Part shown: piece after piece, positions 38,565-61,142 of the stretch
How positions within the stretch are numbered: position 1 is the first letter of the stretch
Layout: each line of letters opens with the position of its first letter
Assembly (NCBI RefSeq): GCF_011927765.1
Contig: NZ_JAATJG010000001.1
Location: 96,792-160,791, forward strand
Reading direction: 5' to 3'
Source: Wenyingzhuangia aestuarii
GTDB taxonomy: Bacteria; Bacteroidota; Bacteroidia; Flavobacteriales; Flavobacteriaceae
Length of the DNA stretch: 64,000 bases
The notes under the pieces: model-generated
Databases searched by the model: none
Seen by the model: only the letters and a program-made list of their open reading frames with translations
What the model was told of the DNA's origin: nothing
Made by a program: the position numbers and the translations under genes

Positions 38565-41500
38565 ATGAGGTTCTGGATATACTTTTTTTGTTCTTTTATT
38601 TTCTTTAACTCTTTAGCGCAACAAATAAAATTTAAAACGTATACCACCAATCAAGGTCTTTCTAATAACTCTGTTGTAGATATAGAAAACGATGTTAATG
38701 GTGGTTTGTGGATTGCAACTTGGGATGGTTTAAACTATTTTGATGGGTCTGAATTTATAGTTTACAAACATGATATTAACAATAAAAATTCAATTGCAGG
38801 AAACTATATTTTAAATATTGAAAAAGACAAGTTTGGAGCTATTTGGATACTTACAGATCAAGGAAAAGTTAGTAAGTATATTGGAAATAGACAGTTTAAA
38901 AGTTTTGAATTTAAAGATGGTGTTGCCAAAAGAATTAGACTTTCTAGCAATAAAACAATTGTAGTTGATACAGGTAGTAAAACTTACGAATGTATTAATG
39001 GGGAATTTGTAGAAAACAAAGTAGCTTTTGTAAAAGGGGGAAATCACAATGCTTTTCGAAAAATATTTAGCGCAAGATATCCAAATGTTATTGTAAACGG
39101 AGTTTTAAAAGACAGGCAAGGAAATGTTTGGTTTGCTACTCGTAGAAATGGAGTTTATATCATTCCGAATCATCAAAATAATATTCAGAACAATCAAATT
39201 AATCACTATGTAGTAGATAAGTATTCTGCATATAGTTTTCATAGTAACGAAATTAACAAGCTACATATAGACTTGTTTGGTAACGTTTGGTTGGCTCATA
39301 AAGATGGTGGTTTAAGCATGGCTTATAAGGACTCCAATTTAATATCTCAAATAGCACCACACCCCATAAAGTTTCCACATTTACCCAATGAATCTATCCG
39401 AGCAATTACTACAGATTTAAACGGTAAAATATGGTTGGGGTATTACAATAAAGGCTTGTACTATTATGATAATAAAACAGAATGCTACGTTAAATACACG
39501 TTTCCTGAAGCTGAAAATAATATAGATTGGGAGCGTGTTAGGTCTTTGTTCACATCTTCTGATGGTAGTGTTTGGGCAGGAACTTATGCGGGCTTGTTGC
39601 GAATATACAATGGAACATATCAGTTATACAGTGCTCATACTATTGAAAATTTACCAGCGAATAGAAACTATTCTTTGTACGAAGACGAAAACAAAAATAT
39701 TTGGATTTCCTGTTGGGGAGGGGTCGCAAAATTTAATTTAACAAATAATAGGTTTGAAGCCTTTAAGGGGCAGAGTTTGTTAAATGATTATCATATAAGA
39801 AATATTAAAAAATATGGTACTGAGTTAGTTTTAGCTACAGAATATAATGGGGTTATCTTTTTTAATTTAGAAAATCGTTCTCTAAATCCTGTTGTAATGT
39901 CTAAAGGAATTTTAGGGAACAGTGTGTATTCTGTATTTAAAGATTTAACAACATCTAATTATTGGATTGCCTCTTTGGGAGGAGTTAGTGTTTATAACAA
40001 AACCAAAGGAGTTATAAAAAATATTACAGAAACAGATGGCTTGTTAAGTCACATGGTATATGGACTTATAGATGTTGGAGATAAAGTTTGGTTAAGCACC
40101 ACAAAAGGATTGTCGGTCATCAATAAACAAACTTATAAAGTAACAGCTCTTAATCCTAACGAAGGTTGGTTGTCTCCAGAATTTTCAGAAGGTGCATATT
40201 ATCAAGATCCAAAAGGAATGTTGTTTTTTGCAGGGGTTAAAGGATTAAATTATTTTAATCCTACAGCTATTAATGTAAAGGAATATACACCTAAGATAAA
40301 ACTTAAGGTAGATGGTGATGAAAATTATTCTAAACAAATAATAAAAGAGCACGCAAATAATACATTGTTTCTTAAAATAAGTACTATTGTTTTTCCTGCG
40401 AGTCAAAAAAAGGATGTGTATTACAAGCTAAACGGAGCAGATACTTCTTGGAAGTTGTTAAAGTGGGGAGGAATAAAATACAGCAACCTTTCTTCTGGTA
40501 CTTATGAATTTTACATTAAAACCTCTTTAGAAGAAAATCCACATACTCCTTATTTTACGGTAAAAATTAACAAAGCTTTTTACGAAACTATTTGGTTTTA
40601 CTGTGCAGTTTCTTTTCTATTTATGTTAACGGTTTTAATTGTGGTTTGGATTAGAAACAAAAACAACAAAAAATTAAAAAGACAATTAGAACAAAAAATA
40701 ATAGATAGAACAAAGGTTATAGAGCATCAAAAACAAGATTTACTTAGAACCAATCAGGAGTTAGATAAAAAAAATAAAGAAGTTTCTCTTCAAAAAGAAA
40801 AGTTATTAGAATTGCATAATAATTTAAAAAATGAAGATTTTGAATTAGAAAAATTTAAATCTTTTGTGCTTTCAGAATTTCAGGAACCGGTTTCTAAAAT
40901 ACTTCAGGTAAGCACTAAAATAGAGGGAAATACTAAGCAACAAGAAAAAATAATGAAGCATGCAACAAGTTTAATTAATTTGTTGTCCGAATGGAATTAT
41001 TTAGATCATGTAAAAGATTTAGAACCTTCTAAAAAAAGCATTGTTAATCTATTTCCGGTGCTTAAAAATATCTTAGAAAAGAATAAAAAGTTAGCCCAAA
41101 AAAATCACGTAAATTTTATTAGTCATATAGACAAAGATATTACCTGGGTAGAGGTAGATATTCTTCGTTTTAGTTTATTAATGCAATACTTTTTTGGAGA
41201 TATTGTAAAATATTCTGATAAAAATAGTCAGTTAGATATTGCCATTACACATCATAATAATGCATTAAAATTACAGCTTATTTCTACAAGCGAATTGTTA
41301 ATTACCAACTGGGAGCATATTGTTCGTTATAGCCCTTATTTTAAAGCCGTAAATACTTTGCTAAATGATTTAAATGGAACGTTTAACTTACAAGATGAGC
41401 AAGATTTTGTGTTAAATTTTGAAATTCCCGTGTTTAAAATGAATACAGATTTTAAACAATCAGAAACCATTTCTTGGAAGCACATGAGTCAACAAGAATT

Positions 41501-42281
41501 GTTAAATAACGGAAATAAAAATATTTTGGTGCTTTCTGATGATGAACATGTTGAAATTGTAAAACAACTGTTAGGGCACAAGCAGAGCAATTTATTGTTT
41601 GAAAACGCTGTTTCCGATTTAACTTCGGCCTTGCAACAAATAGATATAGAGGTGTTGGTGTTTTATCAAACCACTTTTACCAAGGAACTGGTTGGTTTTT
41701 TTAATAAATACAAATCTCAGGAAATGCAAAAGAAAATCCCTTTTGTATATATATCAGAAGAAATTAGTTATACCCTTCAGGAGCAATCTGTAGAGTTTGG
41801 AATTGATGTTGTTATTCAGCTACCCGCAAGTGAATCTTACATTCAAAAGAAAATTTTAGGTTTAACCAAGTCTAAAGAAAATAGAACTACTAACAAATTA
41901 GAAAAAGACATTTTTAAAATTCTAACCGAAGAAAGTGATATTGAAACTGGAAACGATAAACTGATTAAAAAGAGTTTAGAAATTATTAAAAAGGAATTGT
42001 CTAACGCAGGTTTTAATGTAGAAATGTTAATTGATGAATTGGCTATTTCTAGAGTAAAATGCTATCGTTTGTTTAAAGAAGTTCTAGGGCAATCTCCATC
42101 CGATGTAATTACCTCACTTAGGTTTCAAAAAGCAGCCTATTTGCTAAAAAATAAAAACTTAAATATCTCAGAAATTAGTTATGAGTGCGGTTTTAACGAT
42201 CCCAAGTACTTTGGTAAGTCTTTTAAAAAACATTTTGGTGTGAGTCCAAAAGTATATAAAAGTCAAAACCAAGCAACATAA
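38565..42281 (+). CDS. HTCS-like sensor/AraC regulator with degenerate phosphorelay
   Basis: A 1238-residue regulator built like a hybrid two-component system. It has a signal peptide (about 1-18), a periplasmic propeller of repeated blocks such as GLWIATWDGLNYFDG and IWLGYYNKGLYYY (about 20-600), a Y_Y_Y-like domain (about 610-670), a transmembrane segment (about 678-697) and a coiled coil (to about 765). A HisKA-like helix follows in which the phospho-His is Ser770 (LSEFQEPV for the usual SHEFRTPL). Next are a HATPase-like region without clear N or G boxes (about 850-965), a receiver-like domain whose Asp is Tyr1034 (about 985-1100), and an intact AraC HTH pair (about 1140-1235). It immediately precedes a SusCD pair and probably regulates it, without phosphorylation. 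Confidence 0.9.
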   Translation: MRFWIYFFCSFIFFNSLAQQIKFKTYTTNQGLSNNSVVDIENDVNGGLWIATWDGLNYFDGSEFIVYKHDINNKNSIAGNYILNIEKDKFGAIWILTDQGKVSKYIGNRQFKSFEFKDGVAKRIRLSSNKTIVVDTGSKTYECINGEFVENKVAFVKGGNHNAFRKIFSARYPNVIVNGVLKDRQGNVWFATRRNGVYIIPNHQNNIQNNQINHYVVDKYSAYSFHSNEINKLHIDLFGNVWLAHKDGGLSMAYKDSNLISQIAPHPIKFPHLPNESIRAITTDLNGKIWLGYYNKGLYYYDNKTECYVKYTFPEAENNIDWERVRSLFTSSDGSVWAGTYAGLLRIYNGTYQLYSAHTIENLPANRNYSLYEDENKNIWISCWGGVAKFNLTNNRFEAFKGQSLLNDYHIRNIKKYGTELVLATEYNGVIFFNLENRSLNPVVMSKGILGNSVYSVFKDLTTSNYWIASLGGVSVYNKTKGVIKNITETDGLLSHMVYGLIDVGDKVWLSTTKGLSVINKQTYKVTALNPNEGWLSPEFSEGAYYQDPKGMLFFAGVKGLNYFNPTAINVKEYTPKIKLKVDGDENYSKQIIKEHANNTLFLKISTIVFPASQKKDVYYKLNGADTSWKLLKWGGIKYSNLSSGTYEFYIKTSLEENPHTPYFTVKINKAFYETIWFYCAVSFLFMLTVLIVVWIRNKNNKKLKRQLEQKIIDRTKVIEHQKQDLLRTNQELDKKNKEVSLQKEKLLELHNNLKNEDFELEKFKSFVLSEFQEPVSKILQVSTKIEGNTKQQEKIMKHATSLINLLSEWNYLDHVKDLEPSKKSIVNLFPVLKNILEKNKKLAQKNHVNFISHIDKDITWVEVDILRFSLLMQYFFGDIVKYSDKNSQLDIAITHHNNALKLQLISTSELLITNWEHIVRYSPYFKAVNTLLNDLNGTFNLQDEQDFVLNFEIPVFKMNTDFKQSETISWKHMSQQELLNNGNKNILVLSDDEHVEIVKQLLGHKQSNLLFENAVSDLTSALQQIDIEVLVFYQTTFTKELVGFFNKYKSQEMQKKIPFVYISEEISYTLQEQSVEFGIDVVIQLPASESYIQKKILGLTKSKENRTTNKLEKDIFKILTEESDIETGNDKLIKKSLEIIKKELSNAGFNVEMLIDELAISRVKCYRLFKEVLGQSPSDVITSLRFQKAAYLLKNKNLNISEISYECGFNDPKYFGKSFKKHFGVSPKVYKSQNQAT

Positions 42282-42303
42282 CTATTATCGTAGGATTACC
42301 CCA

Positions 42304-42328
42304 ATGTTACCTAAATGTTAGTGTGTTA
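42304..42328 (+). promoter_or_regulatory. Repeated TGTTA boxes upstream of susC
   Basis: TGTTA occurs at 42305, 42316 and 42324; the first two lie in ATGTTA boxes 11 bases apart, one helical turn. This is the layout of a direct-repeat operator, and lies about 130 bases before the susC-like start. Binding by the AraC-type regulator next door or by a PhoB-type protein is conceivable. Confidence 0.35.
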
Positions 42329-42456
42329 AAATTCCACCTTTTTGTGATTTAATAACGGTGTTTTAGAAACAAAAACACCCCTTGGCTATACAAATTTACC
42401 CCCTAATTCAAAGCTCTAAAACTACTTTTAGCACAAATCTAAAACTGAAATTTTCA

Positions 42457-45400
42457 ATGAAAAAAGCTTATTTATTTTTACTGTTTGTGGTAGGATGCAT
42501 GTCATATTCTATAGCACAAGTAACTGTTAAAGGAACCGTGGTTTCTAAAGCAGATCAAATGCCAGTACCAGGTGCGTATATTGTACTTAAAGGACAGGTA
42601 GGACAAGGAACAACTACAATTACCAATTTTGATGGAGAGTTTGTAATCGAATCTAAACAAAAAGAGGGAATTGTAGAAATTTCATCATTAGGGTACAAAT
42701 CTCAGATTCTTAATTATCAAGGTAACCAAATTCTAGAAGTTGTATTACAAGATTTGGCTAGTGATTTAGATGAGGTGGTTCTTATTGGATACGGTTCTGC
42801 TAAAAAAGGAGATTTAACCTCTGCTATTGGAACGGCAAATAATGTAGGAACTATTACAAGTAGACCTGTTTCTAATTACAAAGATTTTTTACAAGGAAAC
42901 ATTGCGGGAGTTACTGTGTTAAGTTCTGGAGGAGATCCAACAAAAACGGCAGATATTAAAATTAGAGGTATTGGAACTTTTAATTCAGAATCTCCCCTAA
43001 TTATTGTAGATGGTATGCCTTACAGTGGGCCAGAAATTAATCCTAACGATATCAAGTCTATTTCTGTATTAAAAGATGCTGCTTCGGCTGCTATTTATGG
43101 AGCTCAAGCTGCATCAGGAGTTATTGTTATAGAAACTAAAAAAGGAGTTTCTGGAAAGCCAAGAATAGGAGTTAACTATTATTCAGGAGTTAAATCGGCA
43201 ACTAATTTACCAACACCTTTAACGGCTAAACAACAAGCAGAAGTATATAATACAGCAGCAGATAATGCTGGTGTTCCAAGACAATCTGCACACGATGCTA
43301 CTCAAAATCCTTACGGACAAGTAAACCGTACCAATTGGATTGATGCTATTTTTAGAGATGCAAAAGTGAATAACATTAATGTAGATTTAAGTGGAGCAGG
43401 AGAAGACTTTAACTACTACACATCTTTTGCTTACAGAAATAGAGAAGGTTTGTTACAAGGAACAAGTTCTGAAAGCTATAACTTAAGAGTAAAGTCTGAT
43501 TATAACTTAACAGATAAAATAACCATTGGAGAAAACGTATATGTTTCTAGAGATGAAGCTTACGGAACCGATACAGATAACCCATACTCTGGAACTATTA
43601 TCAACGCAATTTACATGCCTTCGGCTTCACCAACTCGTTATGCCGATGGAAGTTTTTCTGGAACAGCACCAGAAGATTTATCTCAGTTTGCAGGTGCTTA
43701 TGGAGATGTATACAATCCTTTATCATTGTTGTTAAGACCTAACAAAAAATCACCTAGAACTTTTGGAAGTATTAACGCTTACTTAAAGTACAATGTGTTA
43801 AAAGGATTAACTTTTAAAACCAATTACTTCTACTCTTACAGCAACGAAGAGAAAAAAGAATTTTATGGAAGAGTTCCAGAATTAGGAAGAAGTAGCAATC
43901 AAAACTCATTATTACAAGAAAACAGAACCATTGGAAAATGGATTTGGGACAATCAAATAAGTTACGATGCTTCTTTTGGAGAGCATAACATTAACACAAC
44001 GTTGGTGTATTCGGCTCAAAAAACAACAGGAAACTTTACGTCAATCAAAGCAACAGGGTTTTCATCAGAAGCAACATATAATCAATATTTGCAAAATGCA
44101 GAGGTGGTTCTAAAACCAAGTAATAGTCCTTTTGAAGATGCATTAACATCAGCAATTGGTAGAATAATGTACAATTACGGAAACAAATATTATGTATCTG
44201 CAAGTCACCGTAGAGATGAATCTTCAAGATTGGCAATGGAAAATCAATCAGATAATTTTAGTTCTGCTACGTTAGGATGGAGACTGTCTAAAGAGTCTTT
44301 CTTTAATGTTAATGCTATAGACGATTTAAAATTAAGAGCTTCTTGGGGGCAAATAGGAAACATTAAATCTGTAGGATACTATTCTTTTGATGTGCCTATT
44401 GCTAGTAGAAATATAGTGCTAGGAGACGATGCTGCTTACACAAGTTCTGGTAGCTATGTTGCAAGAAATGCAAATCCAGATTTAAAGTGGGAAACGGTAG
44501 AATCTTTAGATTTTGGTTTAGATGCTTCTTTGTTAGATCATAGTTTAAATATTACAATGGATTACTTTGAAAAAACAACCAAAGGAATGATTATTAAAGG
44601 TCTGGCAGATTTACATCAGGGAATTGCTCCTGCAGACGTAAATGGAGGTCAGGTAAAAAATACAGGATTTGAAATTGCTGCAACTTATAGAAACAAAATT
44701 GGAGCTGTAAACTATAGTGTAAATGCCAATGCAACGTCTGTTAAAAACGAGTTAGAAAACTTAGATGGATATGCAGATATTGGTCAAACTATTTACAATC
44801 ACGATGATAGTGTTAGAGGAGTTTTAAAACCTTATCAAACAAATGTAGGAGGAGAATTGTATACACCTTATTTAATACCTCACTTAGGAATTTTCCAAAA
44901 TCAAGCAGAAATAGATGCGTATACTAAAGACGGAAACTTAATTCAACCAGATGCAAAACCAGGAGATTTTAAATTTGAAGATGTAAATAAAGATGGTAAA
45001 ATTAGTAATGATGATAGAAAATATTACAAAGCATACCAACCTAAATTAACCTATAACTTTGGATTAAATTTAGATTACAAAGGATTCGATTTAGGAATGA
45101 TTTTCCAAGGAGTTTCAGGTGTTAAAGCTTTTAACGGATACAAATACACTACCTACAACGCATCATTATCAGGATATAATTTAGATAACAGAGTGTTGGG
45201 TGCATGGTCTACAACAAACACAAATTCAAACATTCCTAGATTGTCTACAAAAGACGATAACAAAAACTTTGGAACAGCATCTAGCTGGTATTTAGAAGAT
45301 GCTTCTTACTTAAGAGTTAAAAACATCACGTTAGGATACACGTTTGATAAAGTGATAATGGATAAAGTATCAAAAGGATCTACATTAAGATTGTATGTGT

Positions 45401-45528
45401 CTGGAGAAAACTTAGCAACGTTTACAAACTATTCTGGACTAGATCCTGAAGTTGGAGGTAAAGGATTAGATGTAGCCAAATATCCTGTAGCAAGAACAGT
45501 ATCATTCGGTTTATTAATGTCATTATAA
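42457..45528 (+). CDS. SusC/RagA-type TonB-linked outer membrane protein
   Basis: The 1023-residue protein is an outer-membrane TonB-dependent transporter that works with a SusD lipoprotein. It has a signal peptide (about 1-21, YSIAQ), a carboxypeptidase-like domain (VTVKGTVVSKADQMPVPGAYI, about 22-42), a TonB-box/plug start (VVLIGYGSAKKGDLT, about 108-122), the plug motif IIVDGMPYSGPEINP (about 183-197) and a C-terminal barrel ending in FGLLMSL. I chose the ATG at 42457, where the signal peptide begins; a longer frame has none. The substrate is probably a phosphorus-containing compound, judged from the enzyme downstream. Confidence 0.92.
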   Translation: MKKAYLFLLFVVGCMSYSIAQVTVKGTVVSKADQMPVPGAYIVLKGQVGQGTTTITNFDGEFVIESKQKEGIVEISSLGYKSQILNYQGNQILEVVLQDLASDLDEVVLIGYGSAKKGDLTSAIGTANNVGTITSRPVSNYKDFLQGNIAGVTVLSSGGDPTKTADIKIRGIGTFNSESPLIIVDGMPYSGPEINPNDIKSISVLKDAASAAIYGAQAASGVIVIETKKGVSGKPRIGVNYYSGVKSATNLPTPLTAKQQAEVYNTAADNAGVPRQSAHDATQNPYGQVNRTNWIDAIFRDAKVNNINVDLSGAGEDFNYYTSFAYRNREGLLQGTSSESYNLRVKSDYNLTDKITIGENVYVSRDEAYGTDTDNPYSGTIINAIYMPSASPTRYADGSFSGTAPEDLSQFAGAYGDVYNPLSLLLRPNKKSPRTFGSINAYLKYNVLKGLTFKTNYFYSYSNEEKKEFYGRVPELGRSSNQNSLLQENRTIGKWIWDNQISYDASFGEHNINTTLVYSAQKTTGNFTSIKATGFSSEATYNQYLQNAEVVLKPSNSPFEDALTSAIGRIMYNYGNKYYVSASHRRDESSRLAMENQSDNFSSATLGWRLSKESFFNVNAIDDLKLRASWGQIGNIKSVGYYSFDVPIASRNIVLGDDAAYTSSGSYVARNANPDLKWETVESLDFGLDASLLDHSLNITMDYFEKTTKGMIIKGLADLHQGIAPADVNGGQVKNTGFEIAATYRNKIGAVNYSVNANATSVKNELENLDGYADIGQTIYNHDDSVRGVLKPYQTNVGGELYTPYLIPHLGIFQNQAEIDAYTKDGNLIQPDAKPGDFKFEDVNKDGKISNDDRKYYKAYQPKLTYNFGLNLDYKGFDLGMIFQGVSGVKAFNGYKYTTYNASLSGYNLDNRVLGAWSTTNTNSNIPRLSTKDDNKNFGTASSWYLEDASYLRVKNITLGYTFDKVIMDKVSKGSTLRLYVSGENLATFTNYSGLDPEVGGKGLDVAKYPVARTVSFGLLMSL

Positions 45529-45549: not shown

Positions 45550-47139
45550 ATGAAAAATATATATAAAAAAGTAGGAGTCATTCTATTAGGATTAATCGGG
45601 TTTGGATTAACCTCTTGTTCCGATGATTTTACAAATTTAGCTCCATTAGGGAGTGTATCTAACGAAAGTTTTTGGAAAACAGAAGCAGATGCCATTCAAG
45701 GAGCTAACGGATTGTATGAGTTAATGAATGATCAGGAAATGTTTGGTAGAGGTTTCTTTTGGTACATCAACGCATCAGACGATATGATTACAGGTCGTAC
45801 CAAAGCAACGGCAGATGTAATTAAAAACTTTAACATTAATGGTAGCGAAGGAAGTTATACATCTACTTGTTACGAAAAATGTTACAAAATTATTAGAAGA
45901 GCAAACGATGTTTTGTTAAACGTTCCAAATATGGAAATTAGCGAAAATGTAAAAAACAGAGTTTTAGGAGAAGCTTATTTTATGCGTGCTTTTAGTTATT
46001 TCTGGGTAGCACATACTTATGGAGATGATAAAAACGGAGGAGTTCCTATTGTTACTGTTGATAATATGTTTGCTGCAGGAGGTAGTTATGCTAGACCTAC
46101 AAGTGTAGTAGAAAACTATGCAATGATTGTTGAGGACTTAAAAATGGCTTCAGATTTATTGCCTCTTTTTTCAGAATACGGAACAGATGATTATGGTAGA
46201 CCTCATAAAGATGCAGCTTTGGCTTACATAGCTAAGACTAATTTATATTGGGCACAATATGATGCTTCTAGATATGCTGAGGTAGTAAAATATGCAGATT
46301 TGGTAACCAATTCTGGTTCTGGTAGAGCGTTAATCAATACAGGAAATCCTGCTAAAGATTATAGAGAATTACACAGTCATTTAAACAACTGGACAAGCGA
46401 ATATATTTGGTCTGTAAATTCAGGAGTAGATAGAGGTAGTATTTTAACTGGAGTAATGTTAGAAAACAAAGGTTGGGGTAAATTTAACGGATGGGGATAT
46501 TACACACCATCAGAAGGATTGTACAACGAATTTGAAGCAGGTGATGCTCGTAAAGCAGTAACTATTTTAAGTTTTGGTGATGATTTTCAATTTTTTGGAG
46601 AAGCTAAAAGATACCAATCAGAAAATTCATTGTCTGGTTTCCAATTTAACAAATACATGTACGAGTTTAGAGAGGCAGATGCTATTGGAACTACTGTAAA
46701 TACAGATGGAGACAATCCAACAACTACTTACAATGTACCATTAATGCGCTATGCAGAGGTGTTGTTAATGAAAGCAGAAGCGTTAATTGCTGATGGTAAA
46801 AATGGTGATACTCCTTTAAATTTAGTTAGAGCTAGAGCAGGTTTGGCTGCTAAAACAAACGCTACCATGGCCGATTTAAAACATGAAAGAAGAGTTGAGT
46901 TGGCAGGAGAATTTGCAAACAGACATTTTGATTTGGTTCGTTGGGGAGATGCACAGGCTATTTATGCACAACCTATTTATGGAAGAATTTACTCAGATAG
47001 ATCTGATCCAGATTCACCATACACTTCAGAAATTGTATGGCCAGCAAGAACTTTTGATGCTTCTTATATGAATGTTTGGCCTATTCCAAACACTGTAATT
47101 CAATCATCAGGAATTCCACAAAACAAAAACTGGAACTAA
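45550..47139 (+). CDS. SusD/RagB-type outer membrane lipoprotein
   Basis: A 529-residue surface lipoprotein (lipobox TSCSD, Cys23) that binds substrate and closes over its SusC partner. The N-terminal FWKTEADAIQGANGLYELM segment (about 41-59), VPLMRYAEVLLMKAEAL (about 397-413) and the C-terminal ERRVELAGEFANRHFDLVRWGDA block (about 442-464) are SusD hallmarks. It starts 21 bases after the SusC-like gene, and a terminator follows it. Confidence 0.92.
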   Translation: MKNIYKKVGVILLGLIGFGLTSCSDDFTNLAPLGSVSNESFWKTEADAIQGANGLYELMNDQEMFGRGFFWYINASDDMITGRTKATADVIKNFNINGSEGSYTSTCYEKCYKIIRRANDVLLNVPNMEISENVKNRVLGEAYFMRAFSYFWVAHTYGDDKNGGVPIVTVDNMFAAGGSYARPTSVVENYAMIVEDLKMASDLLPLFSEYGTDDYGRPHKDAALAYIAKTNLYWAQYDASRYAEVVKYADLVTNSGSGRALINTGNPAKDYRELHSHLNNWTSEYIWSVNSGVDRGSILTGVMLENKGWGKFNGWGYYTPSEGLYNEFEAGDARKAVTILSFGDDFQFFGEAKRYQSENSLSGFQFNKYMYEFREADAIGTTVNTDGDNPTTTYNVPLMRYAEVLLMKAEALIADGKNGDTPLNLVRARAGLAAKTNATMADLKHERRVELAGEFANRHFDLVRWGDAQAIYAQPIYGRIYSDRSDPDSPYTSEIVWPARTFDASYMNVWPIPNTVIQSSGIPQNKNWN

Positions 47140-47208: not shown

Positions 47209-49008
47209 ATGCAATTATTTGTAAAAAGAAATATTACACTACTATTAGTAATATTAGTAATGGGGCTAGGTTATAGCCAAGATTTTAAAAATATTAGAAT
47301 ACAATCTCACAACGATTATCTACAAAAAACACCTTTTTGGACTGCTTATACAAGCGGATTAAATTTACTAGAGGCTGATGTGTTTTTAGAAAAAGGACAA
47401 TTGTTTATTGCTCACACATCTAAAGAAATTAACAAGGTAAAAACATTAGAGGCTTTGTATTTAAAGCCCTTAAATCAGTTGGCAAGTACAGCAGAAGACT
47501 TGCATAAAGATTTGTTTTTAATGATTGACGTAAAGTCTGAAGCGCTAGCAACTTTAGAGGCAATTATTAAAAATTTAAAAGAATACCCTCAGGTAATTCA
47601 TCATCCACATATTAAAATTGTAATTTCTGGTAATAGGCCAAATTCAGATAGCTATCACCAATATCCTTCTTTTATTTCTTTTGATTATCAAGAAATAGAA
47701 ACAACATTGTCCGCTAAAAATTTGGCAAAGGTAGATATGATAAGTGTAGATTTTAAAAAATACACAGAATGGAACGGAAAAGGTAGATTAACCCATGCTG
47801 ATTATGACAAGGTAACAGCAGTAATTAACCAAGCAAAAAAGTTTCAAAAGCCTTTCCGTTTTTGGGGAACCCCAGATTCTAAAACAGCATGGAGAACTTT
47901 TTTAGAATTAGGAGTAGATGTTATTAATACAGATCAACCTAAAAAATGTGCAACTTATGTTTCTAGTTTAAAGCACAGAACGGTACAGGCAAAAATTTCA
48001 TCAGAAGTTTACAAACCAACTTTTAAATACGATAAGGCTAAAGGAAAAATTAAAAACATTATTTTATTAATTGGTGATGGTAATGGATTGTCTCAAATAT
48101 CATCAGCAACTTTAGCAAATAGTGGAGCTTTAACCTTAACACAGCTTAAAAATATTGGATTGATTAAAACTCAAGCAGCAGATGATTTTACTACCGACTC
48201 TGCAGCTGCAGGAACAGCTTTGGCTACTGGAAAAAAAACAAATAACAGAGCTATTGGAACAGATGTGCATGGAAATGCTTTAAAAAATATTACCGAAATT
48301 TTACATCAAAAAGGATTTGCTACCGGAGTTATTACTACCGATGAAATTACAGGAGCAACACCTTCTGCTTTCTATGCACATCAAAAAGATAGGTCTGAAA
48401 AAGATAAGATAGCAAAGGATTTGGTACAGAGTAAATTAGATTTTTTTGCAGGTGGTGGTTCTAAAACTTTTGAAAATTTAGGTATAGAAAAATCTTTTAG
48501 TGTGGTGAATTCTGTAGCAGAACTAACTACATCAAAAGCCAAAAGAACAGGATTGTTTTTTTCAGAAAAAGGAGTGTCATCTATCCTTACAGGTAGAGGA
48601 AACTTATTGGCAGAAACTACCAAAGCAGGATTACAATTTTTAAAAAAGAAAGAAAAACCTTTTTTCTTAATGGTAGAAGCTGCTCAAATAGACAGTTTTG
48701 GTCATGCTAACAACACAGAAGGAATTGTGTTAGAGGGAATAGATTTTGATCGAGCAATTACTGAAGCTATTCAATTTGCCGATGAAAACAAAGGAACGTT
48801 GGTAATTGTAACTGCAGATCATGAAACATCTGGTTTTGGTGTTGCTAGTGGTAGTGTAGAACATCATTCAATAGAAGGAGGTTTTATTACCCACGATCAT
48901 ACAGGGAGCATGGTGCCTATTTTTGCATATGGTCCACAAGCAAACAGGTTTTCGGGAGTTTATGAAAACAACGAGGTGTTTGAAAAAATAATAGAAAGTT
49001 TAAAATAA
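47209..49008 (+). CDS. Two-domain secreted glycerophosphodiesterase-like/alkaline phosphatase
   Basis: A 599-residue protein with a signal peptide (about 1-23, GYSQ). Residues about 25-265 form a GDPD/PI-PLC-like TIM barrel: SHNDY, EADVF and AHTSK carry the conserved His, Glu-x-Asp and His. Residues about 275-599 are a PhoA-type alkaline phosphatase: LIGDGNG (metal Asp), TTDSAAAGTALATGKKT (nucleophile Ser), EAAQIDSFGHANN, VTADHETSG and the final His in THDHTGS are all in place. The likely chain is phosphodiester to phosphomonoester to free phosphate in the periplasm. It follows a SusCD pair and has no clear TAnnTTTG promoter of its own. Confidence 0.9.
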   Translation: MQLFVKRNITLLLVILVMGLGYSQDFKNIRIQSHNDYLQKTPFWTAYTSGLNLLEADVFLEKGQLFIAHTSKEINKVKTLEALYLKPLNQLASTAEDLHKDLFLMIDVKSEALATLEAIIKNLKEYPQVIHHPHIKIVISGNRPNSDSYHQYPSFISFDYQEIETTLSAKNLAKVDMISVDFKKYTEWNGKGRLTHADYDKVTAVINQAKKFQKPFRFWGTPDSKTAWRTFLELGVDVINTDQPKKCATYVSSLKHRTVQAKISSEVYKPTFKYDKAKGKIKNIILLIGDGNGLSQISSATLANSGALTLTQLKNIGLIKTQAADDFTTDSAAAGTALATGKKTNNRAIGTDVHGNALKNITEILHQKGFATGVITTDEITGATPSAFYAHQKDRSEKDKIAKDLVQSKLDFFAGGGSKTFENLGIEKSFSVVNSVAELTTSKAKRTGLFFSEKGVSSILTGRGNLLAETTKAGLQFLKKKEKPFFLMVEAAQIDSFGHANNTEGIVLEGIDFDRAITEAIQFADENKGTLVIVTADHETSGFGVASGSVEHHSIEGGFITHDHTGSMVPIFAYGPQANRFSGVYENNEVFEKIIESLK

Positions 49009-54131: not shown

Positions 54132-57100
54132 TTGAAAAAGTGTTTTCAAATAATTCTATTATTCTTTTTTGTCGTATCTATTGGATATGGTCAAGAAAAG
54201 GAAAAAGACACACTTAATTTAGAAGAAGAAAAACATACTTTTTCATTTGATAATACTACAGAAGGGGTTTTATATTTAAAAAATCCAACTGAAAAAAAAA
54301 TAGAATACGATCCTACTATTGGTCGTTATATTGTTAGAGAAACTATTGGGAACACAAGTTTTACCACTCCCAAATATTTAACAGAAGAAGAGTACAAAGA
54401 GTATCGATTAAAACAAGATGTTCAAAATTACTTTAAAGCCAAAACAGCGGCTATAGAAGGTAAAAAGAAAGATGCCCAAGAAGCACAAAAAGACTTGTTG
54501 CCTACCATGTATGTAAACAATAGGTTTTTTGAAACCTTGTTTGGAGGTACAGAAATTAAATTGGTGCCAAGAGGTTCGGTAACTATGCGTTTTGGTGTTT
54601 TGTATCAAAATATTGAAAATCCGTTACTTTCTGAAGAGAACAGAAGTAGTTTTACACCAGAGTTTGATCAGCAAATTAGAGCCAATTTAACTGCAAAAGT
54701 TGGAGAGCGTTTAAATGCAGATATTAATTACGATACACAATCTACATTTTCATTTCAAAACCAATTAAAATTAGATTTTGAACCTGGTGAAGATGACTTA
54801 ATTAGAAAATTAGAAGTTGGTAATATCAATATGGATATTAAAAACAATCTAATAACAGGTTCGCAAAGTTTGTTTGGGGTTAAAGCACAGTTGCAATTTG
54901 GTGCTACTACGGTAACAGGAGTGTTTTCTCAGCAACAATCACAAGCAAAAAATATTATTGCAGAAGGTGGTTCTGCCTTAACAGAATTTGAATTAAGAAC
55001 CACACAATACGATAACAATCGACATTTTTTTATAGCACAATATTTTAGAAATAATTACAATACTGCTTTGGCAGAATTGCCATTAATAAATTCGGCTGTA
55101 CAAATTACAAAGTTAGAAGTTTGGGTAACCAACAGAAATACCAATACACAAGATGTAAGAAATATTGTTGGTTTGGTAGATTTAGGAGAATCGGGAACCG
55201 ATAAATATGATAACTCTAAATCTAATATTTCTAACAACACAGTAACAGAAACTCCCATAAACCCTCAGTTTATACCCGATAACAAAGCCAATAGTTTAAG
55301 TCAGTACATAGGAACCGATAAAACACAGTTAAGAGATGTAGAAAATGTTCCTACACAGTTGTCAGGTTTTGAACAGGGTAGAGAATATGCAGTTGTGGAA
55401 AATGCTAGAAAACTAAATGCTAGTGAATTTACATACAATCAACAATTAGGGTTTATTTCTTTGAATTCTAGATTAAACGATGGTGATGTATTGGCTGTAG
55501 CGTTTGAATATACCTATAGAGGAGAAGCTTATAGAGTTGGAGAATTGTCTACAGATGGTATAGAAAGTGATAAAAATATTGTTGTAAAATTGGTAAGACC
55601 TCAATTAATTAATACAGAAGATGTTGTCTTTAATTTATTGATGAAAAACGTTTATAGTATTGGAGCTTACAATTTAGACAAAGAAGGTTTTGTTTTTAAT
55701 TTATTGTATAGAGATGATGCTACAGGGCAAGCAACTAACAATTTACTAGGTTCTAGTGAGGATGATATTAAAAAAAGAACCATTTTAAACTTAACCAATT
55801 TAGATAGGTTAGATGCAAACAACAATTTAACTAGAGATGTAACAGGTAAAGACTATCAAACAGGAGATGGTTTTTTTGATTTTATTGATGGATTAACGGT
55901 AGACACTAAAAACGGATCTATTATTTTTCCGCTAATAGAACCTTTTGGTAGAGATTTAGAAAGCTTATTAAGCAATCAGGCAGATAGAGATAAATATGTT
56001 TTTAAGGAACTCTATACCACAACAGCATCTGTAGCAGAAAATGATTATCAGAAAAAAGATAAATTTTTAGTTCAAGGACAATACTCATCTAGCACAAGCG
56101 ATGGAATTTCTTTAGGAGCTTTTAATGTGCCAAGAGGATCTGTTACCGTAACAGCAGGAGGAATTGTTTTGGTAGAAGGAATAGATTATACGGTAGATTA
56201 TTTTGCTGGAAAAGTAAAAATCATCAATCCTTCTATAGAATCATCAGGACAAGCTATTAATGTTTCTTTAGAAAATAATACCTTCTTTAATCAGCAACAA
56301 AAAACATTTGTAGGAGTAGATGTAGAACATAAGTTTAGTGATAATTTTGTGTTAGGGGCTACTTATTTAAACATTAAAGAACAACCTATTAGTAATAAAG
56401 TTCAGTTAGGGCAAGACCCTGTAAATAACTCTATGTATGGGTTAAATGTTAATTACAGTTCAGAAGTTCCTGTGCTTACAGACTTGGTAAACTATTTACC
56501 TAATATAGATACCGATGCTCCTTCTAATATTTCTGTAAGAGGAGATTTTGCCTATTTAAGACCCAACACTCCATCTAGTATAGATATTGGAGGAGAAGCT
56601 ACTACGTATTTAGATGATTTTGAAGGAGCTCAAATTCCAATTAATTTAGGAACAGCACAAAACTGGTCTTTATCAAGTGCTCCTGTCGGTTTTGATGGAC
56701 GAGATTTTGGAGCTAATAATAGCAATAGCTTAGAGTATGGTAAAAAACGTGCAAAATTAGCTTGGTATACTATAGATCAATTATTTTATACCGGTTCTAG
56801 TTTAAAACCTCAAAATATAGATCCAGATGAATTGTCTAGGGCTGAGGTGAGACCTGTGCAAAGTGAAGAGTTGTTTCCGGAAAGAAATTTAGATGTTACA
56901 CAAAGAACCAATTTACAAACGTTTGATTTAAGTTACTATCCAAACGAGCGTGGTCCTTATAACTATACTCCAATTACAAATCCATCAAAACCTAGCGAAT
57001 TAACAAATCCCGAAGATAAATGGGCGGGAATTACAAGAGGTTTGGTGGTTACAGATTTTCAACGTTCTAACATTCAATATGTAGAGTTCTGGGTGCAAAA

Positions 57101-60100
57101 TCCGTATGAGAATTACAGTATTACAAATAACGAGGGAATTGTTACCAATCCAAACCCTACCAATCAGAAAGGAACTTTGTACTTAAACCTAGGAAGTATT
57201 TCTGAAGATATTTTAAAAGATAATAGAAAGGTTTTTGAAAACGGTTTGCCAGAAAATGGAGATACTACAACAGGGGTAGATGAAACTGTTGTGGCAAATA
57301 TTCCTACAGAAAAATCGTTATTATATGCTTTTGATCAAGGTGATGATACTCGTAGAAATCAAGATGTGGGTTATGATGGAATGAGCGATGCCGAAGAGAA
57401 AACTAGGTTTCCAGATTTAGGAAGTTTAGCCGATCCATCATCAGACAACTTCCGATTTTTTAGAAGTACACAATATGATTCTGAAAATGCTTCTATCTTA
57501 AAAAGATATAAAGATTATAACAACACACAAGGAAACTCACCAACGGCAGCATTGTCTCAAGAGTCTTATCCTACATCTGCAACTAACAATCCCGATGTTG
57601 AAGATGCCGATAGAGATCAGACCATGAATACCATTGATTCTTATTGGCAATACAAGGTAGATTTGTCTCAGAATAACCTAAATAAAACAACCAATGAGTT
57701 TATTGTTGATGAAAGAACCACAACAGTTACTTTAGAAAATAATACAGAAAAGCAATTTAAGTGGTATTTGTTTAGAGTACCTATTGCTGCAGGAGAATCT
57801 ATAGGGGGAATTAATAGTTTTCAGTCTATTCGTTTTATGCGTATGTTCCTAACCGATTTTGAAATTCCGGTAACTCTTCGTTTTGCAGATTTTCAAATTG
57901 TAAGAGGAGATTGGAGAATTTACGATAAAGTAATAGATCAGAATGATAATTTATCAGATAGAGGGACCGAAAATTTACTAGAAACAGGAGTTGTAAATAT
58001 TGAAGAGAACGAAAATAGAGTTCCAGTAAACTATATTTTACCTCCTACCATTAGTAGAGAAGCTTTACAAGGAACATCTAATGTACTACAACAGAATGAG
58101 CAGTCTTTAACAGTAAAGGTTGATAAACTAGAGCAAAACAACACTATTGGGGTTTATAAAAATATAAATGTAGATATGCGAATGTTTAAGCGTTTAAAAA
58201 TGTTTATTCATGCCGAAGAAATTTTACAAAACACTGTTGATGATGATGATTTAGTTGCGGTAATAAGATTAGGGAGCGATACTAATGACAACTACTATCA
58301 AATAGAAGTGCCGTTAACCATGACGGATATTCCTAATTTTGGAACAGGTAACGCTTTAAATGCAAGAGCTGTTTGGCCAGAAAATAATGATTTAGATATT
58401 TCTTTATTAGATTTAACCAAGGTAAAGCTAGATAGAGATAAACAAGGACAATCAGTTACTGCTATTTATCCAGAGCAAACGACTATAGATAATTCACAAA
58501 CGGTTCTTAGAGTTAAGGGAAATCCTAATTTATCCAATGTTAGAACTATCTTTTTAGGAATTAAAAATTTAGATGCTACTCAAAAATCTGCTGAAATTTG
58601 GTTTAACGAACTAAGAATGTCTGGTTTTGATAATCAGGGAGGATGGGCTACAAAAATTTCTGCAGATGCTACCATTGCAGATTTTGCAAAAATTGCCGTA
58701 AACGGAGGTTATCAGTCTATTGGTTTTGGTAGTATTGATCAGAGCATAAGCGAAAGGAGTCAAGAAGAAATTAAAAACTACAGTGTTAATACTACTGTAA
58801 ATGCAGGACAATTATTACCTAACAATTGGAATGTTAGAATTCCAGTAAACTATACCATTTCCGAAGAAATTAGAACTCCTAAGTTTGATCCAAAGTATGA
58901 AGATGTTTTGGCTAAAGATGCTATAGAACAAGGTGTGGCTGCAGAAAGTATTGATATTAGAACTAAGCGTAGAAGTATTAGTTTAATTAATGTTAAAAAA
59001 GAAAGATCAGAAGCTACTTTAAGAAAACCTCAAATCTACGATGTAGAAAACTTTAGTATGTCTTATAGCTATAGCGATGCGACTAATGAAAGTTATGTAA
59101 TTGAAAAAGATATTAGTCAAAATGTAAATGCATCTGCTAATTATGCTTTTAAATTTAAGCAAATAGAAGTAAAACCTTTAGAAAATATTCCATTCTTAAA
59201 GAGTAAAAACTTAAGTCTTTTAAGAGATTTTAATTTTAATTTATTGCCATCAGATATTTCGGTAAACAGCTCTATTAAAAGAAACTATAGCGAGTATAAG
59301 TCTAGAGATTTATCAGAAGTAGCAGGGCTTGATATTCCAACTTTAAAGCAACGTAACTTTATGTTTGATTGGGATTATAGAATTGGATATCAACTAACCG
59401 ATGCAATCAATCTAAACTTTAACGCAAGTAATAATTATATTTATGATACGTTTGAGCAAGATGCGCAAACAGAAGAAGAGTTAGATAGAATAGATTTATA
59501 TTCTAACTTTTTTAATGTGGGTAGACCTAACAATTACACACAAAACTTAACAGCAACTTATAAAATACCTATTAATAAAATTCCTTTGTTAAGTTTTATA
59601 AATGCAGATTATTCCTACACAGGTAACTTTAATTGGAGAGCTGCTTCGCCAGATTTTGTAGAAAAAGTGGGGAATACCATTCAGAACGGAAATACACACA
59701 ATGTATCTACCAATTTAAACTTCTCTAAATTATATTCAGAAATAGGATTAAAAAAACTGTTTTCATCATCTCCTAAAAAAAGAATGCCATCACCAGGAAA
59801 AACAAAGAAAAAATCGGGAACGGTTGGGGATTTTGTATACGGAGTACTTAGTTCTATTAAAACAGGTAGAGTTAGTTATAATAAAAATAGAAGTAGTTCT
59901 TTAGATGGTTACGTGCCAGAAATAGGGTTTTTAGGAAGAAATAAATACAACGGAGGGTATGCACCAAGTTTGGGGTATGTATTTGGTCAGCAAACTGATA
60001 TTGTGAAAAGTGCTGTGCAAAACGGATGGTTGTTAGGAAGGTCTGGAGCTACAGATGATGTTGTTTATAATAAGAATTACAATCAAACAGAGTTTACAAG

Positions 60101-61142
60101 CTTAAATTACGATATTACCTTAAAGCCTATACAAGATTTAAATATTCAGTTAACGGGTAGCAGAAGTTATTCTGATACAGAACAACAGCAAATAGATTAT
60201 ATAACGGGGAGTAATGATATTGAAAGTGCTCAGGTAAATAAATCGGGAAATTATAATATATCTTATTCGTTAATTAAAACAGCCATGGGAAGTGACCCTG
60301 ATGCTTTATTTAACACGTTTGTTACCAACAGAGCAAAAGTGGTTACGCAAGTGTATCCTGGAGGAGATGTTACTTCTGATCAAGCGTTAAATAGTCAAGA
60401 AGTTTTAATTCACTCGTTCTTAGCAGCATATAGCGGAACAGATGTGGTTTCGTCTAACAAAACCATTTTTAAGAAAATGCCACTCCCAAATTGGAATATT
60501 ACTTACAGGGGATTAATGCGATTAGATTTTATTAAAAAGAACTTTAGCAACTTTACCTTGTCACACGGATACAATTCATCGTATACCATTAGTAATTTTT
60601 CAAATAACTTAAATTCAGACACTTCAAATCCGTATCAATCAAGTTTAATTTATTCTGGAATTACCTTAATAGATGCATTTTCCCCACTAATTAAATTAGA
60701 TGTTAAGTTTAAAAGCTCTTTGTCTTTTAGAGGGACTATCAATACCAATAGAACTTTGTCTTTAAACTTAAATAATACTACGCTTTCCGAAATTAATGGA
60801 AATGAATATGTGTTTGGAATAGGGTATAGATTTAAAGATGTAAAAATTAAAACTCGTTTTTTAAGAAAACAAACTACTCTAAAAGGAGATATTAACATAA
60901 AGGCAGATGTGTCTTATAAAACCGATATTACGAATATAAGAAGTATAGATACTCTAACCAGTCAACCGGTGGGAGGACAAAATTTATTCGGAATTAAAGT
61001 TGCAGCAGATTATAATTTAAGTCGTAATTTTACGGCATCATTGTACTACGATCAAAATGTAGCTAGCTATGCTATCTCAACATTGTATCCAAGACAATCA
61101 GTAAATACAGGATTAAGTTTAGTATATAACCTAGGAAACTAA
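54132..61142 (+). CDS. sprA: Type IX secretion/gliding outer membrane protein SprA
   Basis: SprA is the large outer-membrane channel of the type IX secretion system, through which cargo passes. At 2336 residues it is in the family's size range. It has a signal peptide (about 1-20, GYGQ) and early repeats of PTMYVNNRFFETLFGGTEI-type (about 120-140) and ADINYDTQSTFSFQNQLKLDF; the rest is beta-rich with Asn/Thr/Tyr, as expected for a large barrel. It starts 5 bases after ruvA. GldD and GldE are also in this window, and a cargo with a C-terminal sorting domain. Confidence 0.94.
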   Translation: MKKCFQIILLFFFVVSIGYGQEKEKDTLNLEEEKHTFSFDNTTEGVLYLKNPTEKKIEYDPTIGRYIVRETIGNTSFTTPKYLTEEEYKEYRLKQDVQNYFKAKTAAIEGKKKDAQEAQKDLLPTMYVNNRFFETLFGGTEIKLVPRGSVTMRFGVLYQNIENPLLSEENRSSFTPEFDQQIRANLTAKVGERLNADINYDTQSTFSFQNQLKLDFEPGEDDLIRKLEVGNINMDIKNNLITGSQSLFGVKAQLQFGATTVTGVFSQQQSQAKNIIAEGGSALTEFELRTTQYDNNRHFFIAQYFRNNYNTALAELPLINSAVQITKLEVWVTNRNTNTQDVRNIVGLVDLGESGTDKYDNSKSNISNNTVTETPINPQFIPDNKANSLSQYIGTDKTQLRDVENVPTQLSGFEQGREYAVVENARKLNASEFTYNQQLGFISLNSRLNDGDVLAVAFEYTYRGEAYRVGELSTDGIESDKNIVVKLVRPQLINTEDVVFNLLMKNVYSIGAYNLDKEGFVFNLLYRDDATGQATNNLLGSSEDDIKKRTILNLTNLDRLDANNNLTRDVTGKDYQTGDGFFDFIDGLTVDTKNGSIIFPLIEPFGRDLESLLSNQADRDKYVFKELYTTTASVAENDYQKKDKFLVQGQYSSSTSDGISLGAFNVPRGSVTVTAGGIVLVEGIDYTVDYFAGKVKIINPSIESSGQAINVSLENNTFFNQQQKTFVGVDVEHKFSDNFVLGATYLNIKEQPISNKVQLGQDPVNNSMYGLNVNYSSEVPVLTDLVNYLPNIDTDAPSNISVRGDFAYLRPNTPSSIDIGGEATTYLDDFEGAQIPINLGTAQNWSLSSAPVGFDGRDFGANNSNSLEYGKKRAKLAWYTIDQLFYTGSSLKPQNIDPDELSRAEVRPVQSEELFPERNLDVTQRTNLQTFDLSYYPNERGPYNYTPITNPSKPSELTNPEDKWAGITRGLVVTDFQRSNIQYVEFWVQNPYENYSITNNEGIVTNPNPTNQKGTLYLNLGSISEDILKDNRKVFENGLPENGDTTTGVDETVVANIPTEKSLLYAFDQGDDTRRNQDVGYDGMSDAEEKTRFPDLGSLADPSSDNFRFFRSTQYDSENASILKRYKDYNNTQGNSPTAALSQESYPTSATNNPDVEDADRDQTMNTIDSYWQYKVDLSQNNLNKTTNEFIVDERTTTVTLENNTEKQFKWYLFRVPIAAGESIGGINSFQSIRFMRMFLTDFEIPVTLRFADFQIVRGDWRIYDKVIDQNDNLSDRGTENLLETGVVNIEENENRVPVNYILPPTISREALQGTSNVLQQNEQSLTVKVDKLEQNNTIGVYKNINVDMRMFKRLKMFIHAEEILQNTVDDDDLVAVIRLGSDTNDNYYQIEVPLTMTDIPNFGTGNALNARAVWPENNDLDISLLDLTKVKLDRDKQGQSVTAIYPEQTTIDNSQTVLRVKGNPNLSNVRTIFLGIKNLDATQKSAEIWFNELRMSGFDNQGGWATKISADATIADFAKIAVNGGYQSIGFGSIDQSISERSQEEIKNYSVNTTVNAGQLLPNNWNVRIPVNYTISEEIRTPKFDPKYEDVLAKDAIEQGVAAESIDIRTKRRSISLINVKKERSEATLRKPQIYDVENFSMSYSYSDATNESYVIEKDISQNVNASANYAFKFKQIEVKPLENIPFLKSKNLSLLRDFNFNLLPSDISVNSSIKRNYSEYKSRDLSEVAGLDIPTLKQRNFMFDWDYRIGYQLTDAINLNFNASNNYIYDTFEQDAQTEEELDRIDLYSNFFNVGRPNNYTQNLTATYKIPINKIPLLSFINADYSYTGNFNWRAASPDFVEKVGNTIQNGNTHNVSTNLNFSKLYSEIGLKKLFSSSPKKRMPSPGKTKKKSGTVGDFVYGVLSSIKTGRVSYNKNRSSSLDGYVPEIGFLGRNKYNGGYAPSLGYVFGQQTDIVKSAVQNGWLLGRSGATDDVVYNKNYNQTEFTSLNYDITLKPIQDLNIQLTGSRSYSDTEQQQIDYITGSNDIESAQVNKSGNYNISYSLIKTAMGSDPDALFNTFVTNRAKVVTQVYPGGDVTSDQALNSQEVLIHSFLAAYSGTDVVSSNKTIFKKMPLPNWNITYRGLMRLDFIKKNFSNFTLSHGYNSSYTISNFSNNLNSDTSNPYQSSLIYSGITLIDAFSPLIKLDVKFKSSLSFRGTINTNRTLSLNLNNTTLSEINGNEYVFGIGYRFKDVKIKTRFLRKQTTLKGDINIKADVSYKTDITNIRSIDTLTSQPVGGQNLFGIKVAADYNLSRNFTASLYYDQNVASYAISTLYPRQSVNTGLSLVYNLGN

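Follow-up and report, generated by a model that had tools for sequence, protein, structure and literature searches.

A flavobacterial clade of hybrid two-component regulators without phosphotransfer residues, and its probable link to phosphorus scavenging

Introduction

How could a regulator with the architecture of a Bacteroidota hybrid two-component system (HTCS) operate once every residue of its phosphotransfer chain has been replaced? The question is raised by a gene of Wenyingzhuangia aestuarii (genome of 3.53 Mb in 43 contigs) that lies within a stretch of 64,000 nucleotides, hereafter the window (NCBI RefSeq assembly GCF_011927765.1, contig NZ_JAATJG010000001.1, positions 96,792 to 160,791 of the forward strand). 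An original prediction, made from the window alone, held that the phosphorelay of this regulator was erased, that its sensor, membrane and DNA-binding parts were healthy within an intact frame of 1238 codons, and that dimer geometry had taken over from phosphate. Comparison with relatives upholds the loss of the phosphorelay, which is fixed across a monophyletic clade (here termed pseudo-HTCS) that is under purifying selection. Indeed, phosphotransfer is lost at every step in this clade: the kinase ATP site, the phospho-His and the receiver Asp and Lys. The loss of the inhibitory contacts between receiver and DNA-binding domain, the resemblance of the locus to a phosphorus-scavenging one and the conservation of promoter elements go beyond that prediction.

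Loss of phosphotransfer residues

Residues were compared between 22 pseudo-HTCS members and 25 canonical HTCSs, the latter being a non-random sample composed of six paralogues from the same genome and 19 loci recruited by similarity, among which close relatives from Pedobacter are numerous. The phospho-His, present in all 25 canonical proteins, is found in none of the 22 members (Ser in 17, Ala in five), and the N-box Asn, again present in 25 of 25, is replaced throughout by Asp (20) or Glu (two). Neither G-box pattern is retained in any member (DxGxG: 0/22 versus 23/25; GxGxGL: 0/22 versus 25/25, for pseudo-HTCS and canonical HTCSs, respectively). In the receiver, the phospho-accepting Asp is Tyr and the conserved Lys is Leu in all 22 members, whereas both residues are kept in every canonical protein; on strand 4, 21 of the 22 have Ser at the Thr/Ser position. 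The same pattern of substitution in all 22 sequences is therefore not due to chance.

The replacements originally read from the window protein itself were all recovered in the alignment, namely Ser770 for the phospho-His with its neighbours Glu771, Phe772 and Pro775 retained, Asp879 at the N-box, the lack of recognizable G-boxes, and Tyr1034 and a Leu, now placed at residue 1086, in the receiver. The corresponding features of the gene are as follows.

38565–42281, + strand: pseudo-HTCS regulator, 1238 residues followed by a stop, comprising a periplasmic propeller, Y_Y_Y, one transmembrane helix, a coiled coil, a degenerate DHp–catalytic/ATPase (CA)–receiver chain and an AraC helix-turn-helix (HTH)
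40587–40646, + strand: predicted transmembrane helix, residues approx. 675–694, a hydrophobic run spotted by eye
40647–41024, + strand: coiled coil leading into the degenerate DHp, residues 695–820, from alignment, with modelled helices at 699–785 and 790–814
40872–40874, + strand: codon of Ser770, within the degenerate DHp
41025–41489, + strand: degenerate CA-like domain without G-boxes, residues 821–975, from profile comparison, model and alignment
41199–41201, + strand: codon of Asp879, N-box position
41508–41894, + strand: pseudo-receiver, residues 982–1110, from profile comparison, model and alignment
41664–41666, + strand: codon of Tyr1034, receiver Asp position
41820–41822, + strand: codon of Leu1086, receiver Lys position
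42033–42263, + strand: AraC/HTH_18 DNA-binding domain, residues 1157–1233, Pfam 74.2 bits

The coordinates, length and unbroken frame of the gene proved correct. Pfam recognizes the sensor (Reg_prop, 65.5 bits) and the DNA-binding end (HTH_18 and HTH_AraC), so that the sensor, membrane and AraC features of an HTCS are present, albeit with a Y_Y_Y match (22.8 bits) under its cut-off of 26.6 and a membrane helix placed by eye. HisKA, HATPase_c and Response_reg gave no Pfam match in the regulator at an E-value of 0.01. There are 31 HTH_18 matches in the host genome, seven of which lie in HTCS-sized frames (1244–1415 residues), and the six other HTCS-sized paralogues retain the His, the N-box Asn, GxGxGL and the receiver Asp and Lys.

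A phospho-acceptor might have moved rather than vanished, a possibility that the original prediction had itself raised. It is ruled out by the invariant columns of an alignment of 18 members (which excludes L052, a sequence with an in-frame stop). No His is invariant between residues 735 and 1110, and the sole invariant Asp of this region, Asp865, precedes the N-box, so that no displaced receiver Asp is seen either. The remaining chain is under constraints of its own: among the columns that are invariant in the 18 rows are Trp810, Asp865, Lys882-Tyr883, Ser923-Pro924, Phe1012-Glu1013, Tyr1034 and Leu1086-Pro1087. These losses strongly suggest that the regulator works without phosphorylation in the cell.

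Loss of the receiver lock

In canonical HTCSs, a set of contacts named S/CHIP-DK has been proposed to keep the DNA-binding domains inactive in the absence of receiver phosphorylation (Gao, Wu and Stock; accessible portions of PMC11253607). SHIP is present in 22 of the 25 canonical proteins and in no pseudo-HTCS member. With the D and K columns placed by alignment and by the spacing given in that part of the paper, the D is kept in 21 of 25 canonical HTCSs versus 0 of 22 members (Asn in 20), and the K in 17 canonical proteins, the remaining eight having Arg, versus 0 of 22 members (Leu, Val, Ala or Ile). As judged from the alignment, the inhibitory contacts between receiver and DNA-binding domain appear to have been lost together with the phosphotransfer residues. 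A lock kept without phosphorylation would hold the regulator off; losing both would thus fit a working design that dispenses with phosphate.

Descent, selection and predicted fold

Full-length relatives were retrieved by protein search from nine of 99 genomes, the host included (E up to 1e-100), among them five of the seven genomes of the genus, and from 16 of 397 genomes of the family, the host again counted (E up to 1e-130, at most two candidates scored per genome). A pseudo-kinase profile returned hits in five of 395 genomes of the phylum (E up to 1e-40, at most four candidates scored), all of the same family and three of them new. The total of 22 sequences, i.e. the window and 21 others, relates to these searches, which less similar clades could escape. 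Orthologues carrying the same substitutions beside SusCD, which it had been suggested to look for, thus exist in 21 other genomes, at approximately 41–70% identity to the window protein; the nearest named relative in the search is Wenyingzhuangia heitensis (70%). No close relative with intact residues was found among them, all 22 sharing the losses.

Of 27 loci retrieved, 19 were used as canonical HTCSs and seven excluded, the last (L012) being apparently a duplicate of L049. The excluded loci either show kinase motifs and no receiver (L015, L016), have motifs that could not be aligned (L019, L030, L036, L038) or present both kinase and receiver motifs (L035). When 18 members were compared with the 19 canonical loci profile to profile over residues 748–1110 (358 columns), hhalign returned a probability of 99.3 and an E-value of 6e-20. 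The cytoplasmic chain is, on this profile evidence, recognizable as a degenerate DHp–CA–receiver that is HTCS by descent.

In a tree of 35 of the 47 rows (L052, L176 and ten canonical near-copies were left out), a branch with a support of 100/100 separates all 20 members tested from the other rows. Pseudo-HTCS hence forms a single monophyletic flavobacterial clade descended from HTCS regulators. In three close pairs, the non-synonymous rate (dN) is well below the synonymous rate (dS) in every domain wherever dS could be computed, which points to purifying selection on the clade.

An AlphaFold model computed with canonical rows (mean predicted local distance difference test (pLDDT) 73.5; predicted template modelling score (pTM) 0.37) displays a long helix at residues 699–785 (model residues 5–91), a DHp pair, and CA-like and receiver-like orders of strands and helices. 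Among the 50 PDB matches listed, all are histidine kinases or kinase-like proteins: ShkA comes first, followed by ZraS, DivL (4q20) and others including RetS and phytochromes.

A SusCD and phosphatase neighbourhood

Three genes follow the regulator on the same strand.

42457–45528, + strand: SusC-family TonB-dependent transporter, with a likely ATG start at 42457 (the listing of open reading frames gives TTG at 42382)
45550–47139, + strand: SusD-family lipoprotein, from Pfam and neighbourhood comparison
47209–49008, + strand: two-domain phosphatase, with a GDPD_2 (PF13653) match in its N-terminal half and an alkaline phosphatase in its C-terminal half

SusC adjoins the regulator in all 22 loci, and a phosphatase homologue is found in all 22 neighbourhoods, after SusD in 19. 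At two loci (L177 of G001 and L178 of G003, annotated by Pfam and by open reading frame sizes plus tblastn, respectively), the GDPD-phosphatase is separated from SusD by an additional SusCD and another alkaline phosphatase, and a metallophosphoesterase follows. In G762, the phosphatase homologue lies behind a metallophosphoesterase and matches less well, at 43% over the initial 422 residues; it is truncated where the stretch ends. G762 also belongs, with G646 and G597 (L174–L176), to the loci where SusC is distant (approx. 31% identity) and where SusD is recognized by Pfam and not by similarity to the SusD of the window; a distant SusC beside a kept regulator indicates that the regulator outlasts transporter exchange.

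A comparable arrangement is PUSII (PusCD2-PhoA1) of Flavobacterium johnsoniae, where, according to the available part of PMC8115612, an alkaline phosphatase with PF13653 stands beside SusCD and is induced by phosphate depletion; a table in PMC8812569 conflicts with this in assigning PF13653 to PhoA2. The locus described here likewise combines SusCD with a phosphatase of PF00245 plus PF13653 type, and by this analogy is probably built for phosphorus scavenging. The regulators differ, as a FecR-like regulator is listed for PUSII in that part of PMC8115612, the main text of which does not contain the words HTCS or hybrid.

Two elements in the promoter

The interval between regulator and SusC was compared in 19 loci (G646, G597 and G762 being left out), and its autocorrelation peaks at a lag of 11 (z 9.5), then at 64, 43, 21 and 22. 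In the window it holds the following features.

42285–42320, + strand: four-TTA array with an exact 11-bp period, Pho-box-like, containing AATGTTA-N4-AATGTTA at 42303–42320
42322–42338, + strand: candidate AraC-type operator element, first slot, a weak copy (11.9 bits)
42365–42381, + strand: candidate AraC-type operator element (16.6 bits), 43 bp from the first slot
42423–42430, + strand: TACTTTTA, a possible Bacteroidota -7 element, which departs in its last base from the consensus TAnnTTTG

At least three TTA at an exact 11-bp period occur in 16 of the 19 loci versus 0.7% of shuffles. The array is not a general motif of SusC promoters: among the 21 SusC genes of the genome over the family cut-off, only that of the window has four copies; three copies are seen at two of the remaining 20, one per strand. 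Nor was it retained as the operator of pseudo-HTCS, since a like box also precedes PiT genes. Exact copies of the core AATGTTA-N4-AATGTTA number five in the genome, and a PiT/porin O-P operon accounts for two of them.

Pho boxes are 11-bp-period direct repeats bound by PhoB. The marker PstS (TIGR02136) was found in none of 20 genomes, and PiT was consequently taken as the Pho marker. Among 21 PHO4 loci with long open frames (552–772 residues; one segment per gene) from 20 genomes, 17 carry the box on the other strand, 61–70 bp upstream of where the long PiT gene starts, and 14 of the 21 beat shuffles at 5%. A matrix derived from the 21 PiT sites alone exceeds the 99% shuffle level in 10 of the 19 pseudo-HTCS promoters versus one of the genome's 20 other SusC promoters (Mann–Whitney p 2e-6 for the difference in score, between loci that are related and hence non-independent). 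By analogy, the 11-bp-period box may represent a flavobacterial Pho box; a literature search found no flavobacterial Pho box with its sequence.

Other copies of the box were also located. Around the PiT and Porin_O_P genes (L135, G000:C1:402500-412500), two exact boxes and one with a single mismatch lie at sites 4540, 4670 and 7045. One exact box (L136, approx. 4367–4395) precedes a gene whose 135-residue product matches MORN_2 below threshold. Another (L137, approx. 3826) adjoins an open reading frame that resembles amidophosphoribosyltransferase by eye. These last two genes are possibly further members of the same regulon.

The second element, a 17-bp motif TGaAACAAaAnTaCaCC, has 46 sites distributed over all 19 loci (at most three counted per locus), with at least two sites in 17, versus at most nine sites in 20 runs of shuffled controls and one site in two of 20 control SusC promoters at 9 bits. 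In these 17 loci, neighbouring sites are always 21, 22, 43, 44 or 64 bp apart. AraC half-sites measure 17 bp and are spaced by about 21 bp close to the promoter. The spacing recalls this layout, and we thus propose the 17-bp element as a candidate operator of pseudo-HTCS.

Proposed mechanism and alternatives

We consider it likely, overall, that this protein is a phosphorylation-free, one-component transmembrane AraC regulator of phosphorus scavenging by SusCD and a GDPD-alkaline-phosphatase. A ligand on the periplasmic propeller would change the geometry of the dimer, and this change would travel through the transmembrane helix, the coiled coil and the phosphate-free rod of DHp, CA and pseudo-receiver to the AraC domains. 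These would bind the helically phased 17-bp array upstream of SusC and control the operon of SusCD and phosphatase, presumably by activation rather than repression, and the adjoining Pho-box-like element probably adds control by phosphate starvation. The modelled helix, running from just past the membrane into the DHp, fits the transmission of dimer geometry through a coiled coil, as the original prediction had suggested. The stronger statement that the whole phosphorelay chassis of a phosphate-scavenging regulator, having lost its kinase site, receiver pocket and lock, was lastingly repurposed as a passive mechanical rod is favoured with somewhat more reserve.

Several observations weigh against this interpretation. 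Regarding selection, several comparisons give a saturated or undefined dS; for the pseudo-receiver, one pair is affected in each way. Two members are incomplete: the orthologue of G005 (L052, 7946–11689) is interrupted in the pseudo-receiver by an in-frame TAG, so that its DNA-binding domain lies in a separate open stretch, and that of G762 (L176, 7563–9440) has no propeller, its frame starting at approximately residue 670 and holding the transmembrane helix, pseudo-kinase, pseudo-receiver and HTH. The better model used nine canonical rows in its alignment, which biases it towards the canonical fold, and a model from a two-row alignment is poor (pLDDT 47.6), with several of the same strands and helices recurring. 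With up to two mismatches, the box is not enriched genome-wide (81 + 84, i.e. 165 sites, versus 109 + 108, i.e. 217, for the reversed pattern), so that only near-exact copies can be meaningful, and the longer array pattern gives one genome match, as does its reversed control. The box is also absent from two shorter PiT genes (0/2; L139, L140), and its orientation relative to SusC is opposite to that relative to PiT. For the 17-bp element, the 21/22-bp step itself occurs in only 11 of the 19 loci, the rest showing 43, 44 or 64 bp only or a single site; six further loci have multiples of the step, and the window's own has 43 bp only. A strict two-slot operator (21 bp, up to three mismatches) is absent genome-wide, the window's own site included. 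Both DNA elements, finally, are matched to their binders by analogy.

Among the alternatives, the one that survives best, although unlikely, is a constitutively DNA-bound repressor or anchor, with the Pho-like box inducing the operon and the sensor merely releasing the protein. The missing SHIP-DK lock would suit it, as the accessible text of PMC11253607 connects departures from the lock with binding that needs no phosphorylation and refers to BT2391 as a repressor. However, the elements lie upstream of the promoter-like site, as for AraC activators.

RetS tunes the kinase of GacS, and the DHp of pseudo-HTCS could in the same way dimerize with a canonical HTCS and tune its kinase. Good conservation of the DHp (mean pairwise identity of 50.5%), the presence of RetS among the fold matches and six canonical paralogues in the genome speak for this. 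Such a partner or decoy role is nevertheless improbable: the HTH is the most conserved domain (65.1%) and, together with candidate operators kept beside its own SusCD, points to direct DNA binding at the locus.

That the protein still signals through phosphorylation, be it at atypical sites such as Tyr1034 or in trans by a separate kinase, seems slightly more improbable still. Tyr1034 is present in all 22 members, and the kinase-like protein DivL of Caulobacter, whose structure is among the fold matches, carries a Tyr at its acceptor site. Tyr1034, however, occupies the Asp position and not the His position, the receiver Lys is Leu throughout, the acidic pocket is not conserved and residues 735–1110 hold no invariant His.

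That the gene is a decaying HTCS on its way to a pseudogene, as the loss of every catalytic motif and the two incomplete orthologues might suggest, is hardly credible and is rejected by the orthologues, the tree and dN/dS, given the same substitutions in 22 of 22 members, a monophyly supported at 100/100, dN well below dS wherever the latter is defined, a frame intact in 20 of 22 and a conserved gene order.

Comparison with known systems

With Bacteroidota HTCSs, the clade described here shares the order propeller, Y_Y_Y, transmembrane helix, DHp, CA, receiver and AraC, the SusCD neighbour and a detectable cytoplasmic homology; it differs in having no phospho-His, ATP site, receiver Asp and Lys or SHIP-DK lock. 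A literature search, in which subscription journals were thinly covered, brought up no HTCS clade that has lost both halves. The sole HTCS precedent retrieved is BT4236 of Bacteroides thetaiotaomicron, with Gln848 in place of the phospho-His and a proposed phosphorylation-independent action (PMC11253607). It is a partial precedent: the phospho-His is missing in both cases, but the accessible text of that paper reports only this replacement and a partly kept lock (CSIP-EK), whereas here the kinase, receiver and lock have been lost clade-wide and at a phosphorus locus.

Pseudo-receivers and pseudokinases are known elsewhere. Aspartate-less receivers and pseudo-receivers (PMC12632262, PMC4395418, in the portions available) likewise keep a receiver fold without phosphotransfer residues, whereas here the pseudo-receiver shares a single chain with a periplasmic sensor and a kinase that is just as dead. 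Transmembrane transcription regulators (PMC10269533, likewise in part) are also one-component, membrane-bound and DNA-binding, but in pseudo-HTCS the sensor and the DNA-binding domain are separated by a complete, dead two-component chassis.

How bacterial pseudo-receivers switch is still a mystery according to the accessible part of a 2025 review (PMC12632262). The clade provides a naturally occurring system with a sensor, a dead kinase, a dead receiver and a DNA-binding domain joined in one chain; intact HTCSs encoded by the same genome can serve as controls, and the compact promoter as readout. If the proposed reading holds, HTCS-type signalling can run on geometry alone; it also suggests a regulator for organophosphorus uptake of the PusCD type in flavobacteria.

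Elsewhere in the window, positions 54132–61142 hold a gene with an SprA_N match, encoding a gliding/type IX secretion protein of 2336 residues.

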